DNA of 64,000 nucleotides from an uncultured Prevotellaceae bacterium (lineage in GTDB: Bacteria; Bacteroidota; Bacteroidia; Bacteroidales; Bacteroidaceae). Shown piece by piece: positions 23,979 through 29,920 of the stretch. Under the pieces are notes generated by a model. The model did not search any database and was not told the DNA's origin. It saw nothing but the letters and a program-made list of their open reading frames with translations. Location of the stretch: NCBI GenBank assembly GCA_900315095.1, contig OMXS01000001.1:62001-126000 (forward strand), given 5' to 3'. Made by a program: the position numbers and the translations under genes. Each line of letters starts with the position of its first letter. Position 1 is the first letter of the stretch.

Positions 23979-24635
23979 ATGTCACCAGAAGAATTCCAGA
24001 AGATAATTGCCGACAACGCCGAAACAATAAACGCAATAAAAGACTCGGCGCATAATCTGCACGCCAATGTAAACCAGCATTACGATGGCACGCTTCCCTA
24101 TGGGTTCCACCTTGATATGGTTGCTGACTCTATATATAAATATGGTGACGAGGTGTGCGCCGACGCCGACGATGTGCTGCCGCTGTTCTTCGGGGCATAC
24201 TATCATGACAGCATCGAGGATGCACGACTCACTTATAACGATGTCATTGCAGAAGCTTTGCGGTTCATGGACAAAAGGCAGGCGTTCATCGCTGCCGAGA
24301 TAGTATATGCTTTGACCAACGACAAAGGTCGCACGCGCGCGCAACGCGCAGGCGCGAAATATTATAGAGGTATACGCAAGACTCCCTATGCCCCATTCAT
24401 GAAACTCGCAGACCGTTTGGCCAACATTACTTATTCATGTCAAGGCAAAAACGAGAACAACTGCCACATGCGCGAGGTGTACCGCAGAGAACTGCCCCAC
24501 TTCCTTGAGGCTATAGATTGCACTCGATGTCCTTCAGAAAACGACAAACGGCATGATTGCCGCTTCTTGCTTCCAAAGAAGATGATTGAAAGAATAGAAA
24601 ACATAATCAATAGTTCCATATCAAATGAAAACTAG
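23979..24635 (+). CDS. HD-domain phosphohydrolase resembling the SpoT/MESH1 hydrolase domain
   Basis: A 218-residue HD-superfamily protein. The metal ligands appear as YGFHLDMVAD (His at about 42), YYHDSIEDAR (HD and ED at about 74-79) and KLADRLANI (Asp at about 143), the spacing seen in (p)ppGpp hydrolases. A separate Cys-rich tail (CTRCPSENDKRHDC) has no counterpart in MESH1. It may hydrolyse ppGpp or another nucleotide; no synthetase domain is present. The stop overlaps the next gene by 11 bases, indicating an operon. Confidence 0.78.
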   Translation: MSPEEFQKIIADNAETINAIKDSAHNLHANVNQHYDGTLPYGFHLDMVADSIYKYGDEVCADADDVLPLFFGAYYHDSIEDARLTYNDVIAEALRFMDKRQAFIAAEIVYALTNDKGRTRAQRAGAKYYRGIRKTPYAPFMKLADRLANITYSCQGKNENNCHMREVYRRELPHFLEAIDCTRCPSENDKRHDCRFLLPKKMIERIENIINSSISNEN

Positions 24636-25578: not shown

Positions 25579-26607
25579 ATGCCCAGAACAATAACAGCCA
25601 TAGTAATACTTGCCCTCGTTCTTCTTAATTCATGCACCCAGAAGAAAGAGAGCAAGTTGACGCCAGAGAATTTCCAAACAGAAATCCTGCTGCCCACCAC
25701 CCCTGTGAAAGACCAAGGCAGCAGTTCGCTGTGCTGGGCATATGCTATGCTTGCAACAATAGAGACAGAACATATAGTGCAAGGCGACTCACTAAATCTA
25801 AGCACCACTTTCCTAGCTCGTCACTTGCTCGAAGATCAACTCGAGCACATCTATTTGTCATCTGCTGAAGACAAGAGAATGACTATAACCACTCGAGGTA
25901 TGGCTGGCGATGCCCTATGGTTGATGGAAACCTACGGCGCAATGCCATACGACACGTGGCACGACCGCGCCGATTATAAATTGCTGTGCCGTAAACTGCA
26001 ACAAATGGCTAAGGCTGCAGCAGTACATAAGACAGGACTAAAGAAAATGCTCGATGATGCCGAACCCGTAATGAACCAGCAGATGGGACCGAAGAAAGGC
26101 AGCGTTTACATGCTCGGCTCAGAATACACACCTCTCGAGTTTGCGCACAGTCTTTTCCGACATGGAGAATACGAGGCGTTAACAAGTTTCACCCATCATC
26201 ACTATGGCGAGCGCATTTCGCTCGAAGTGCCCGATAACCGATACGGCAACACCATGCTCAACGTGCCTCTCGACACACTAGTACAACGTATTGTCACAGA
26301 ACTCCGCAACAATCATCCAGTATGTTGGGAGGGTGACACCAGTAATCCCGGCTTCTCATTCAGCAGAGGGACAGCTATATTTGAAAACAATGTTGACGCG
26401 GCAAAACGACAGGAAGCATTTGAGAACCGCCAAACAACCGACGACCACTGCATGGCTATCGTAGGACTTGCCCGCGACAAGAAAGGCACTCTCTACTTCT
26501 TCTGCAAAAACTCATGGGGCATAGACAACCCCTACGGCGGATTCATGTACATGAGCGAAAACTATCTTCGTATGTACACGCTTGCTGTATGGATGAAGGT
26601 GTTTTAA
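25579..26607 (+). CDS. Papain-like (C1 family) cysteine peptidase lipoprotein
   Basis: A 342-residue predicted lipoprotein (lipobox LLNSC, Cys19) with a bleomycin-hydrolase/aminopeptidase C-like fold. The catalytic residues are Cys52 (GSSSLCWAYA), His290 (TDDHCMAIVG) and Asn311 (CKNSWG), with the preceding PVKDQG supplying the oxyanion Gln. All are intact, so it should be active outside the cytoplasm. Substrate unknown; the neighbouring coiled-coil secreted protein is a possible partner. Bacteroidales C1 enzymes of this type include toxin- and bacteriocin-processing members, but nothing here proves such a role. Confidence 0.85.
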   Translation: MPRTITAIVILALVLLNSCTQKKESKLTPENFQTEILLPTTPVKDQGSSSLCWAYAMLATIETEHIVQGDSLNLSTTFLARHLLEDQLEHIYLSSAEDKRMTITTRGMAGDALWLMETYGAMPYDTWHDRADYKLLCRKLQQMAKAAAVHKTGLKKMLDDAEPVMNQQMGPKKGSVYMLGSEYTPLEFAHSLFRHGEYEALTSFTHHHYGERISLEVPDNRYGNTMLNVPLDTLVQRIVTELRNNHPVCWEGDTSNPGFSFSRGTAIFENNVDAAKRQEAFENRQTTDDHCMAIVGLARDKKGTLYFFCKNSWGIDNPYGGFMYMSENYLRMYTLAVWMKVF

Positions 26608-26751: not shown

Positions 26752-26872
26752 ATTTGCGACAAATAATGATGGCCTTTCCCCGTTTTGTCGCAAATCCGAG
26801 CGTTTGTCGCAACAAACGAAATAGAAATGAGGCATTTTATTATGCACCAGCGAAAAAAGGACATTATCTTTG
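26752..26872 (+). promoter_or_regulatory. Regulatory module A: three GCGACA/TGTCGC sites and promoter
   Basis: ATTTGCGACAAAT (26752-26764), TTTTGTCGCAAAT (26783-26795) and TTTGTCGCAACAAAC (26803-26817) place GCGACA or TGTCGC at 26756, 26786 and 26805. The -7 element TATCTTTG is at 26865-26872, with a weak TATG -33 at 26841-26844. The site spacing of 30 and 49 bp is identical in module B (27612-27730), and the distance to the -7 element differs by one base. The duplicated sites look like operators for one regulator. Confidence 0.8.
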
Positions 26873-26914
26873 CACCAGAAAACAAAAATAAACGAAAAGA
26901 AAAAAGCAAAAGAT

Positions 26915-27106
26915 ATGAAAAAAGTAGTTATCGGAATCATCATGATTTTCCAGGTTGCAGTTTCTCTCGACCTCATCACAACAAACACATCGAGCGAAGA
27001 GAGCATGGGCAGAGCAGAGATTGCTGCTAAGTCTTGCAACACTAGCAACTATATCGAGATTTCCGACTTTAACGAACTTGAAACATACGTTTGCACAAAT
27101 AAGTAA
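26915..27106 (+). CDS. Small secreted peptide, 63 residues, unknown
   Basis: The ATG at 26915 lies 42 bases after the -7 element. The product starts MKKVVIGIIMIFQVAVS, a signal-peptide-like helix with a Lys-Lys head. A polar, acidic mature region with two Cys follows (AAKSCNTSNY and ETYVCTNK at the end). No Ala-x-Ala cleavage site is obvious, so a membrane-anchored or leader-type peptide is also possible. It matches no family I recognise; it is reminiscent in size of the short Bacteroidales precursor peptides (for example the NVEALA type) but lacks their motif. No gene partner is adjacent. An intrinsic terminator follows 170 bases later. Confidence 0.6.
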   Translation: MKKVVIGIIMIFQVAVSLDLITTNTSSEESMGRAEIAAKSCNTSNYIEISDFNELETYVCTNK

Positions 27107-27276
27107 GTGAATAAGTTAGTGAAAGGTTAGATATAAATTCTAGTACATGATATTACACGTTAGGTTATAGGTTTTAAGTTGTATTTATTTGGTTATTAGT
27201 TACTATTAAGGTAAAGTCAATGAATTTCTGACTTGATGGCTTAAGTGCCTGTGAGAGGTATAAAAGTCAAAAAAAT

Positions 27277-27310
27277 GCCGAGACTTCTGAAAAGAAGTCC
27301 CGGCGTTTTC
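27277..27310 (+). terminator. Intrinsic terminator downstream of the 63-residue peptide gene
   Basis: GCCGAGACTTC (27277-27287) pairs with GAAGTCCCGGC (27294-27304), one mismatch, loop TGAAAA, followed by GTTTTC. The long 170-base untranslated stretch before it could itself be functional RNA. Confidence 0.8.
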
Positions 27311-27354
27311 TTTCTGGTAATTGTTACTTGTTAAAATTCTAACGGCATCTTGCC

Positions 27355-27424
27355 TCTACTTAAGTTCTACTTTGCTTCTACTTTAACTCTACTCGAATTC
27401 TACTTGTGTTCTACCTGATTCTAT
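27355..27424. repeat. TCTAC array phased every 11 bp
   Basis: TCTAC begins at 27355, 27366, 27377, 27388, 27399 and 27410, exactly 11 bp apart. A degenerate TCTAT follows at 27420. Most copies extend to TTCTACTT. Eleven is not a multiple of three, so this is not a coding repeat. The copies face the same side of the helix, as expected for co-operative protein binding. Confidence 0.85.
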
Positions 27425-27480
27425 GACATAATGCTCTAATTTCACCCCTATTATTTCCCATTAGCATGCTTCCCGCCTGC

Positions 27481-27568
27481 CACTTGTGCCTTTTCGGCTT
27501 GTCACTTGTGCCCTTTTGGCATGTCAAAGGTATACTATCCATCTGTCAGAGGTATACATCTCACACGG
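27481..27568. repeat. 22-bp-period tandem array
   Basis: Units at 27481, 27503, 27525 and 27547. The first two share CACTTGTGCC(C)TTTT-GGC, the last two share (A/G)AGGTATAC, and TGTCA recurs at each of the three unit junctions. The block GTGCC(C)TTTTGGCAT also occurs, inverted, in the repeats at 6.0 and 42.5 kb. Confidence 0.7.
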
Positions 27569-27611
27569 CGTTTAAGCACATTTGAACAACCATATATATG
27601 CAAGACATACT

Positions 27612-27730
27612 TATGCGACAACATCTGATGCCATTCGTCCCTTTTGTCGCAAATACAGGCACGTGTCGCCACAAACTACGTAGATTTGCTTTTTATGTGT
27701 TTGTGCGCCACTATTTACACGCTAACTTTG
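27612..27730 (+). promoter_or_regulatory. Regulatory module B: three GCGACA/TGTCGC sites and promoter
   Basis: GCGACA at 27615 and TGTCGC at 27645 and 27664 repeat the 30- and 49-bp spacing of module A. TTTTGTCGCAAAT (27642-27654) is identical in both. The promoter is perfect: TTTG 27700-27703, a 19-bp spacer and TAACTTTG 27723-27730. Confidence 0.82.
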
Positions 27731-27802
27731 CAAACGCAAAAAGGGACAAGCGGCCACAATGGCCAACATTCCTATAAAGTATCATTAAAATAAAGATCGA
27801 AC

Positions 27803-27934
27803 ATGAAGGCAATAAAAGAAATGTCTATCGTTAAGACATTTATCAAGGCTTGGAAGAACATGCGTTTCAGTTCTGCCGATACAGCTAAGTACAACTGTCA
27901 GATGTTTTTTACCGACAGGTATTTCTATTTTTAG
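27803..27934 (+). CDS. Candidate 43-residue peptide, unknown
   Basis: The ATG at 27803 follows the perfect module B promoter by 72 bases, and the frame ends at TAG 27932-27934. The product starts MKAIKEMSIVKTFIKAWKNM, a basic amphipathic helix, and ends in an aromatic tail (NCQMFFTDRYFYF) with a single Cys. There is no signal peptide. A basic leader with an aromatic core suggests a precursor or signalling peptide, or the transcript may be non-coding. It does not resemble the 63-residue peptide, so only the control regions are duplicated. The following 138 bp to the AsmA-like gene has its own promoter. Confidence 0.5.
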   Translation: MKAIKEMSIVKTFIKAWKNMRFSSADTAKYNCQMFFTDRYFYF

Positions 27935-28022
27935 AACAGGAAGTTAGGAGTTTGGAGTTGTTGGAGGCATACCTTAGTGTGTGCTCTTCCAGAAGTTATA
28001 AAGAAAGATAACGGGTGTTTTT

Positions 28023-28054
28023 CTTGATTATGTCAATGAAAATGCTTACCTTTG
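28023..28054 (+). promoter_or_regulatory. Promoter of the AsmA-like gene
   Basis: CTTG at 28023-28026, a 20-bp spacer and TACCTTTG at 28047-28054. The -7 element overlaps the possible TTG codon at 28052, which therefore cannot be the start; ATG at 28073 is used. Confidence 0.68.
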
Positions 28055-28072
28055 ACGCCAAACACTAATCAC

Positions 28073-29920
28073 ATGAAGGCGAATCGCATCTTTCGTATCT
28101 TGAAATGGACTGCGGGCATCATCATTTCTTTGGTGGTGCTCGTTGCCGTTGCTACCCTATTGGCAAACTCTAACTACGTGCAACAACAGCTGCTGAAGAA
28201 AGCAACAAGTTATCTCTCGGAGCGTCTGGGCACCAGCGTAAAGGCAGACAGCGTGAGTGTTAACCTCTTCGTGCCCTCGATGTCGCTCTACGGACTTGAC
28301 ATTGAGGACCAGCAGAAGCGACCAATGCTAAGAATGGGAGAGGCCAGCGCACGCATCACAATTGCAAGCATATGGGAGAAGAGCATCACCATAGAGCACA
28401 TCGAGGCAGACCGGCTGGAGGCAATGATTATAAAGGACAGCCTCGACTCTGCCCCCAACTACCAGTTCCTTGTTGACTCGCTGTCGAAGAAGAAAGATGT
28501 AAATAAGGAAAAGGAAAGCAACGGGAAGACTAAACTAAACATCGACATGCGGGAAGTTACCCTCAATAATGCCCGTTTCAGTTTCCAGCAGGGTGACAAG
28601 AAAAACGAAATATCTCTGGTTATGCTTGACGTGAATGCGAAAGGCGAAGGATATGACGTTAAACTGGACAGTCTACGACTGAAAACCAATAACCACATGC
28701 CACGAAAGAATACCAACCGACCGAATCGAGGATGGTTTGACGCGGGACATCTGGACATCACGGCTTCGCTGGAATGCTCTATCCACACAGCGAAGAAAGA
28801 CACCCTGTCGTTGACTCTCGACAACGCAACAATAAGCGACCGCATCACAGGAATCGACATCAAGGACATGCGCCTCACAGCTACATCTGACATGAAAACG
28901 ATGTGGCTGAAAGACATAGCGCTGAAGCAGGGTTCCACATCGCTCAACATCAGCAGCGCCGCCATAACTCTGCCAAACAAGAAAACAGGAAAGAAACTGG
29001 CATACAAGACAGGCGTAATAACCGGAAACGTGATACTTCGCGACATCGCACGCCCCTTTGCACCCGTGCTGAAGGGGTTCCAACTGCCGCTGAGGCTGAA
29101 AGTACAGATGAGTGGCAACGAAGACATGATGAGGTTCACCAATGTTCGAGTATCAACAACCGACAATCATCTCACCATTGCCGCCAACGGATACATAAAC
29201 AACCTTCGCGTGAAACATGGTTATAAGGTTAGTTTCGATGTCAACAACATGAAGATAAAGCAGGGAACGGCAGAGCGAGTCATCAACCAGTTCCCCGTGA
29301 AGCGCCTCATGATGTCACAACTGCAGAAACTGGGAGATATAACCTACAATGGACACTTCGACGCGGTATGGCGAAACGAGACGTTCATGGGACATCTTGC
29401 CACAGCTTGCGGGCCGTTTGACTTCCATTTCTCCATCGATGACAACAATAAATGGCTGAAGGGCGGCATCAGCACCACAGCATTCCGCCTGGGAACGGCA
29501 TTTGAAATTGCCGACCTTGGCGACGTGGCTTGTCACGCCGACTTCAACGTAGACATTTCAAAGGAGAGAACGGCACTTGCCCGTAAAGACAAGGGAGGCA
29601 AACTGCCCATTGGCTCGGTGTCGGCAACCGTTGACGACAGCAGTTACAAGAAACTGCATGTGAGGAATGTTGATGCCACCATCGACTGCGACGGCAGTAT
29701 TGCAGAGGGCGACATCACGCAACGAGGGAAGCATCGCGACATCTATTGCCACTTCACATATAACCCAAACCTAAGCAAAAGCAAGCTGAAACTGTCGAAA
29801 CCGGGTATCAGTTTCCACAAGAAAGATAAATCCAACGACGAGCAGACGACTGACTCCGTTGGTCAAAAGAAGAAAAAAGGTCTGTTGAGAGGTCTTTTCA
29901 AGAAGAAGTCAAAGGAGTGA
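28073..29920 (+). CDS. AsmA/TamB-like inner-membrane-anchored protein
   Basis: A 615-residue protein with one N-terminal membrane helix (about residues 11-33: WTAGIIISLVVLVAVATLLA). A long periplasmic beta-rich region of AsmA type follows (SERLGTSVKADSVSVNLFVPSMSLYGLDIED), then a Lys/Ser-rich C-terminal tail ending KKGLLRGLFKKKSKE. AsmA-like proteins form hydrophobic grooves that carry phospholipids between membranes. The basic tail is unusual and could contact membrane or nucleic acid if cytoplasmic, but topology places it outside. It is monocistronic. Confidence 0.78.
   Translation: MKANRIFRILKWTAGIIISLVVLVAVATLLANSNYVQQQLLKKATSYLSERLGTSVKADSVSVNLFVPSMSLYGLDIEDQQKRPMLRMGEASARITIASIWEKSITIEHIEADRLEAMIIKDSLDSAPNYQFLVDSLSKKKDVNKEKESNGKTKLNIDMREVTLNNARFSFQQGDKKNEISLVMLDVNAKGEGYDVKLDSLRLKTNNHMPRKNTNRPNRGWFDAGHLDITASLECSIHTAKKDTLSLTLDNATISDRITGIDIKDMRLTATSDMKTMWLKDIALKQGSTSLNISSAAITLPNKKTGKKLAYKTGVITGNVILRDIARPFAPVLKGFQLPLRLKVQMSGNEDMMRFTNVRVSTTDNHLTIAANGYINNLRVKHGYKVSFDVNNMKIKQGTAERVINQFPVKRLMMSQLQKLGDITYNGHFDAVWRNETFMGHLATACGPFDFHFSIDDNNKWLKGGISTTAFRLGTAFEIADLGDVACHADFNVDISKERTALARKDKGGKLPIGSVSATVDDSSYKKLHVRNVDATIDCDGSIAEGDITQRGKHRDIYCHFTYNPNLSKSKLKLSKPGISFHKKDKSNDEQTTDSVGQKKKKGLLRGLFKKKSKE

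Follow-up and report, generated by a model that had tools for sequence, protein, structure and literature searches.

Two very small genes in the DNA of an uncultured Prevotellaceae bacterium raise the question of what binds the matching control sequences ahead of them, and of how far beyond this pair that control extends. The genes lie in a stretch of 64 000 nt that was analysed as a whole (the window), and the original prediction made from its sequence was that each is preceded by three precisely spaced GCGACA/TGTCGC sites and a -7 promoter element, as part of a regulon of small peptides or RNAs under one regulator. To our knowledge, few regulons of rumen Prevotella have been mapped, and stress control of the sigma-B type has not been described there. 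We argue, with a probability of roughly three in four, that the modules would be activator-dependent promoters of a dispersed regulon, with a coiled-coil AraC-family protein as the activator and, more tentatively, with partner switching as the means by which it is set.

Two operator-promoter modules and their genes

Inspection of the window places all six sites where they had been predicted. In the first module, site 1 (26756..26761) carries TGTCGC on the minus strand and reads GCGACA on the forward strand, and sites 2 (26786..26791) and 3 (26805..26810) carry TGTCGC on the plus strand, inside TTTTGTCGCAAAT and as TGTCGCAACAA respectively. The second module repeats this arrangement, with site 1 at 27615..27620 (minus strand, GCGACA forward), site 2 at 27645..27650 (plus strand, again inside TTTTGTCGCAAAT) and site 3 at 27664..27669 (plus strand). 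The promoter consensus of the Bacteroidota at -7 is TAnnTTTG, and the predicted spacing of this element holds as well: TATCTTTG (26865..26872, plus strand) starts 54 nt past site 3 of the first module and TAACTTTG (27723..27730, plus strand) 53 nt past that of the second, or 60 and 59 nt from the start of the site. The two modules have 71 nt in common at 72 % identity, lie 859 bp apart, and correspond to positions 88756 (window 26756) and 89615 (window 27615) of contig C46 in our numbering of the source genome (G000). Scans of this region of the window for sigma-70 promoters and for terminators gave counts at chance level, and Rfam returned no match in it.

The first module precedes a gene for a 63-aa protein (26915-27106, plus strand) with an N-terminal hydrophobic helix that by eye is signal- or anchor-like, and the second a gene for a 43-aa protein (27803-27934, plus strand) with an aromatic C-terminus; neither matches a Pfam or NCBIfam family. 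By comparison with two relatives, the 63-aa frame is under purifying selection, since orthologues are kept in both G325 (62 aa, 49/62 identical, dN 0.13, dS 0.62) and G341 (62 aa, 36/62 identical). For the 43-aa frame the evidence is the length, start, stop and DR[YF]F[YF]F tail kept in G341 (43 aa, 13/43 identical), because the G325 copy, identical at 42 of 43 residues, lies in an unusually similar patch. Gene order is also kept: G325 has module, 62-aa protein, module, 43-aa protein and then a DUF748 gene, which we take to be AsmA-like, and in G341 the 62-aa and 43-aa genes each lie behind a module and are followed by the DUF748 gene.

Taken in steps of 250 nt, the patch itself (window 27140-28250) has about 94-97 % identity with G325, against 75-87 % in the steps just outside; other intergenic gaps are about 47-65 % identical, and the coding window 24251-24500 also reaches 97 %. 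It could be either a recombined patch or constrained non-coding DNA. Downstream of the 63-aa gene there is a terminator-like 12-bp stem-loop on the minus strand (27277..27304) that is conserved in G325; with one such structure found and 1.1 in shuffled sequences, it may have arisen by chance. Directly 5' of the first module is a gene for a C1-like cysteine peptidase (window 25579-26607; Peptidase_C1_2, E = 6e-12), which by eye is also present in G325 and G341.

Copies of the module in the genome and in relatives

It had been proposed to search for the three-site pattern in the complete genome and in relatives, and both hold more copies. The genome (3.24 Mb, 58 contigs) has 15, of which 13 are exact and two have one mismatch each. 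The exact copies were found with slack allowed in both gaps, a search in which the reversed-pattern control gave none and about 0.002 matches are expected from base composition (G+C taken from sampled stretches of the genome); the gaps are 24 and 13 nt in 12 of these copies and 25 and 13 nt in the other. Fixing the gaps and allowing up to two mismatches added the other two copies, with one match in the control. In 14 of the 15 modules the distance from site 3 to the start of TAnnTTTG is 53-55 nt; the module at C36:4027 has no -7 element of exactly this form. Direct repeats of the form TGTCGC-N10..16-TGTCGC number 24 in the genome (control 4); 14 of them read TGTCGCAA-N11-TGTCGC, and because all 14 sit inside three-site modules the three boxes behave as a single unit.

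When named species genomes were scanned, at least 116 stretches matched the module. The titles of the 80 matches listed are those of Prevotella, Prevotellaceae, Bacteroidaceae, Muribaculaceae or Bacteroidales metagenome-assembled genomes, with one 'uncultured bacterium', and many of the titles among them name the rumen, reticulum, omasum or abomasum. An alignment of 147 copies, 133 from other genomes and 14 from G000, with the 24- and 13-nt gaps fixed by the search, gives a tight logo in which the conserved flanks are TTTGTCGCAAAT for box 2 and TGTCGCAACAA for box 3; ahead of a weakly conserved -33 region is a tract rich in A. Of the 135 copies examined in other genomes, 129 have a -7 element, either TAnnTTTG or a form with one extra base, at 53 or 54 nt; among the remaining six it lies at 51 or 52 nt in two and was not found in four.

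Genes behind the modules

Taking the first gene 3' of each module as its target, by our own reading, we find that common control DNA ahead of unrelated products, as seen in the window, is borne out across the genome. Six of the 15 modules precede ORFs of less than about 85 aa and one precedes no plausible ORF; the other eight precede larger proteins. A regulon of small peptides or RNAs is thus too narrow a description, and a purely small-peptide regulon was set aside. The larger targets are three PepSY-like proteins, all on C36, an outer-membrane barrel at C46:23264 whose match is below the Pfam cut-off, the membrane-fusion protein (adaptor) of an RND efflux system on C24, and three proteins without a family on C20, C34 and C43; secreted-looking proteins are among the targets. 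The small ones are the two proteins of the window, one of 81 aa on C49 and three short hydrophobic frames: one on C25 of 26 aa, or 43 aa if an earlier start is used, one on C29 of 41 aa, overlapped by a 67-aa frame, and one on C58 of 24 aa. By eye, the 24- and 26-aa frames look like the signal peptides that larger members of the regulon have in relatives.

The C29 peptide (L020) has, by eye, a relative behind a module in L108. The C22 module (L018:6735) is followed by a -7 element and then by no plausible ORF, with a hairpin-like stretch about 210-245 nt downstream by eye, and its product could be a non-coding transcript. Between module-driven PepSY-like genes on C36 is a gene for a 1517-aa C10 peptidase with a Spi inhibitor domain (L016:4292-8842).

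In relatives, 135 modules gave 85 proteins of at least 62 aa with a start within 260 nt, from which six were dropped by eye. The 79 retained include 19 PepSY_like, seven OMP_b-brl, six TssD, four DUF4468, three SpoIIE and three clostripain proteins, a single C10 peptidase, a single OmpA protein and others, such that genes for TssD/Hcp, clostripain, C10 peptidase and SpoIIE all occur behind modules. At locus L223 a module sits between the gene for a more diverged (class B) form of the candidate regulator described below and that for TssC, which is followed by TssD; L224 has the same gene order, with a gene for a SpoIIE protein with a PDC sensor domain about 6 kb away. This suggests that in some Prevotella the genes for the type VI tube and sheath may share the same switch. 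Two modules (L223:8834 and L061:2598) lie inside type VI secretion clusters and adjoin TssC/TssD, and a class B coiled-coil AraC gene is present in the cluster.

A candidate regulator

Clustering of the ORFs over module loci gave a gene set of SpoIIE/HATPase, STAS and a protein of about 186 aa. The last of these has one orthologue in the genome, a 185-aa AraC-type protein (G000:C31:72090-72644) with 75 % identity to the query P0001, the next best AraC protein reaching 31 % over partial length. The protein of about 186 aa has an AraC domain with two helix-turn-helix motifs (HTH_18, E = 3.5e-16), and its structure model (mean pLDDT 89.5, helix block pLDDT 78-95, pTM 0.60, from a seven-sequence alignment) consists of one N-terminal helix of about 85 residues (3-87) and an AraC fold. 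The C-terminal part of the model matches solved AraC domains, with those of YesN, AdpA and MarA among the matches. A cupin-type N-terminal domain for ligand binding or dimerization is common, if not universal, in AraC/XylS regulators, and none was found in the model, where the helix takes its place. No receiver domain was matched on P0001 or P0002 by Pfam, or on P0001 by NCBIfam. An RprY-like response regulator had first been entertained, and was dropped once gene neighbourhoods and co-occurrence pointed to the AraC gene. The C31 gene adjoins neither SpoIIE/STAS genes nor a module in G000; it is the best candidate for the regulator, and a strong one.

Regulator and module were then compared across two samples, with 11 candidates scored per genome at first look. 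Among 301 genomes of the family a close regulator is present in seven and a module in ten (reversed control one), and all seven regulator genomes have the module. Three family genomes have a module and no close regulator: G065, 81 % complete, has one site, G100, 89 % complete, has three, and the single site of G158 is off consensus. None of the three has a regulator match at E <= 1e-8 with all candidates scored. Among 300 genomes of the genus, 50 have a close regulator (E <= 1e-60) and 68 a module (reversed control 0), with both in 42, regulator only in eight, module only in 26 and neither in 224 (Fisher p = 2.6e-25, a value that ignores kinship). Including the diverged regulator classes A2 and B, the counts become 52, 22, 16 and 210. 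Class B is itself associated with the module, which occurs in 10 of 21 genomes that have class B and neither A nor A2, against 16 of 226 (p = 5e-6), the other 11 of the 21 having none by exact search; for genomes with weak AraC matches only, the figures are 4 of 24 against 12 of 202 of the rest (p = 0.07).

The exceptions run in both directions. Sixteen of the 68 module-bearing genus genomes have no class A, A2 or B regulator, and in 13 of these the scoring of all first-look candidates gave no regulator match at E <= 1e-20. G308, which is 99 % complete, has ten modules and no close regulator, its only coiled-coil AraC matches being of 28-29 % identity, and one of these diverged proteins is encoded 4-5 kb from a module (L220). 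The gene at L220:2240-3046 (G308:C12) encodes an AraC protein whose coiled coil is preceded by a hydrophobic N-terminal segment. Conversely, 11 of 53 genomes with a class A or A2 regulator have no exact module; in two of these a module with one mismatch is present, and the other nine lack one even at up to three mismatches, a level at which one of 20 control genomes negative for regulator and module gave a match.

The SpoIIE-STAS neighbourhood

The surroundings of the regulator gene were inspected in 26 of the 56 close-regulator genomes, those in which the locus extends about 1.5 kb or more upstream. In 21 of them the AraC gene is preceded, on the same strand and at 11-236 nt, by a STAS match, and in 19 a SpoIIE match comes ahead of the STAS gene; neither was detected beside the AraC gene in G000, G325, G341, G060 and a fragment from G171. 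In G000 the SpoIIE-STAS pair is on C37 and the AraC gene alone on C31; the C37 proteins share 46 % (SpoIIE) and 65 % (STAS) identity with their counterparts at L064, a locus at which the three genes are neighbours. G000 has a second SpoIIE protein on C24, near a module. The domain matches are strong (SpoIIE, E = 7e-51 in L055 and 5e-54 in L086; STAS, E = 5.6e-18 in L148). An RsbW/SpoIIAB-like HATPase is present as HATPase_c_2 in L055 and L086 and as a separate protein in L156, and the motif YISSSGLR, the region of the phosphorylatable serine, occurs in the C37 STAS protein, L148 and L064. Because a module directly precedes the SpoIIE gene in L055, L086, L124 and L150, autoregulation of the SpoIIE locus is suggested.

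No sigma-factor gene was seen beside SpoIIE-STAS on inspection of the listed loci; seven sigma-factor-like ORFs, one of them checked with Pfam, occur in six module loci, all kilobases from the module. One ECF sigma-factor gene (L020:4375-4884; Sigma70_r2, E = 1e-14) is about 2.6 kb from the C29 module. Just upstream of the C37 SpoIIE-STAS pair are type III-like cas genes, by ORF reading only, and a CRISPR-like array (L177:79-1106) with 16 copies of a 44-nt match at 65-66 nt spacing.

Discussion

The operator has a rigid geometry, with box 1 inverted and boxes 2 and 3 direct and 19 bp apart, and the -7 element starts about 60 nt past the start of box 3. The AraC-family protein would bind these boxes and recruit RNA polymerase, its long N-terminal helix probably forming a coiled coil that dimerizes or docks to a partner. 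Three boxes are a poor fit to a simple dimer, and this counts against the AraC explanation. That the activity of the protein is set by partner switching is plausible and more weakly inferred: the AraC protein, in place of a sigma factor, would be released or retained by a STAS antagonist and a membrane sensor in which a sensor part of dCache type is fused to a SpoIIE phosphatase and an RsbW-like HATPase. Once dephosphorylated, the STAS protein would bind the HATPase or else the AraC helix. Most inspected relatives have the three genes next to one another in operon-like order, and in G000 they are split between C37 and C31. The output would comprise proteins of the envelope, secreted proteins and tiny signal-like ones, to which some relatives would add components of type VI secretion. 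We incline slightly towards the full form of this proposal, in which a fused SpoIIE/RsbW-like sensor and a STAS protein control a ligand-free coiled-coil AraC protein, which by way of the rigid three-box operator governs a large Prevotella regulon of envelope proteins and micropeptides that in some genomes extends to type VI secretion.

The original prediction had noted that the modules might prove to be fragments of a larger mobile repeat rather than operators, and the near identity of the C24 and C58 copies in G000, including about 25 nt upstream, would fit such an origin. We give it almost no credence, given that over the 147 copies conservation ends at module and promoter, with no conserved, MITE-like element with termini beyond the operator (the C24/C58 pair being an exception), that the -7 distance is near-invariant and that copies precede the start codons of unrelated genes. 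It is more conceivable, if still improbable, that some other regulator, such as a response regulator or another AraC protein, binds the module, and that the coiled-coil AraC protein co-occurs with it through common clades: G308 and 15 other module genomes have no class A, A2 or B regulator, and the co-occurrence statistics ignore phylogeny. This reading has nevertheless to accommodate the presence of the module in all seven regulator genomes of the family, the separate association of class B, the position of the L223 module directly between the class B gene and TssC, and the diverged coiled-coil AraC gene near a module in G308.

A more serious competitor, which we think possible and clearly less probable than not, accepts the AraC protein as the regulator but has it controlled by its own level or another signal, with the SpoIIE and STAS neighbours controlling something else. 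The five genomes in which neither was detected beside the AraC gene, G000 included, favour it; against it are the STAS gene directly upstream in 21 of 26 genomes and the SpoIIE gene preceding it in 19, the module before SpoIIE at four loci, and the retention in G000 of the SpoIIE-STAS pair closest to the L064 type. Binding and activation of the modules by the coiled-coil AraC protein, which we hold likely, are the firmer part of the preferred reading and partner switching the weaker.

Among the papers listed in a search of the literature, none was recognizable as an account of the system or of the motif. The nearest parallel is the Rsb system (RsbU/RsbV/RsbW, sigma-B), in which a SpoIIE phosphatase, an RsbW-like HATPase and a STAS protein with an SSSG motif are likewise encoded together; here, however, phosphatase and HATPase are fused in one sensor (with a separate HATPase in L156), and what follows the STAS gene (21/26 inspected genomes) is a gene for an AraC protein and not, so far as inspection of the loci goes, for a sigma factor. 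AraC proteins held by a partner are represented by ExsA, with its anti-activator chain ExsD/ExsC/ExsE. The candidate regulator shares with ExsA and the AraC/XylS family a complete two-motif AraC domain, but it has the helix of about 85 residues in place of a ligand-binding domain, and its proposed partners are SpoIIE and STAS proteins. Among Bacteroidota promoters the likeness lies in a -7 element at near-fixed distance, and the difference in the three-box operator upstream and the weakly conserved -33 region. SiaABCD of Pseudomonas is a case of partner switching with a non-sigma output, and SiaA is the best NCBIfam match of the L055 sensor, albeit at 86.7 bits against a cut-off of 700. With SiaABCD, with BtrU/V/W of Bordetella, which governs type III secretion by partner switching (PMC8256260), and with the SypE/SypA partner switch of Vibrio fischeri (PMC12826045), the present system shares a SpoIIE-type phosphatase and a STAS protein outside the classic stress pathway. 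For BtrU/V/W and SypE/SypA, no AraC-type output or Bacteroidota example was found in the excerpts of these sources or among the papers listed, and neither 'AraC' nor 'Bacteroid' occurs in the main text of PMC8256260.

The operator is now defined, the regulator has a named candidate, and a candidate chain of signalling and a list of targets are at hand; the regulon also offers a route to the function of the PepSY-like proteins and of several tiny signal-like peptides. PepSY-like and RND genes regulated by iron or in colitis are described for Bacteroides in an excerpt of PMC10434189, an observation that we have not counted as evidence.
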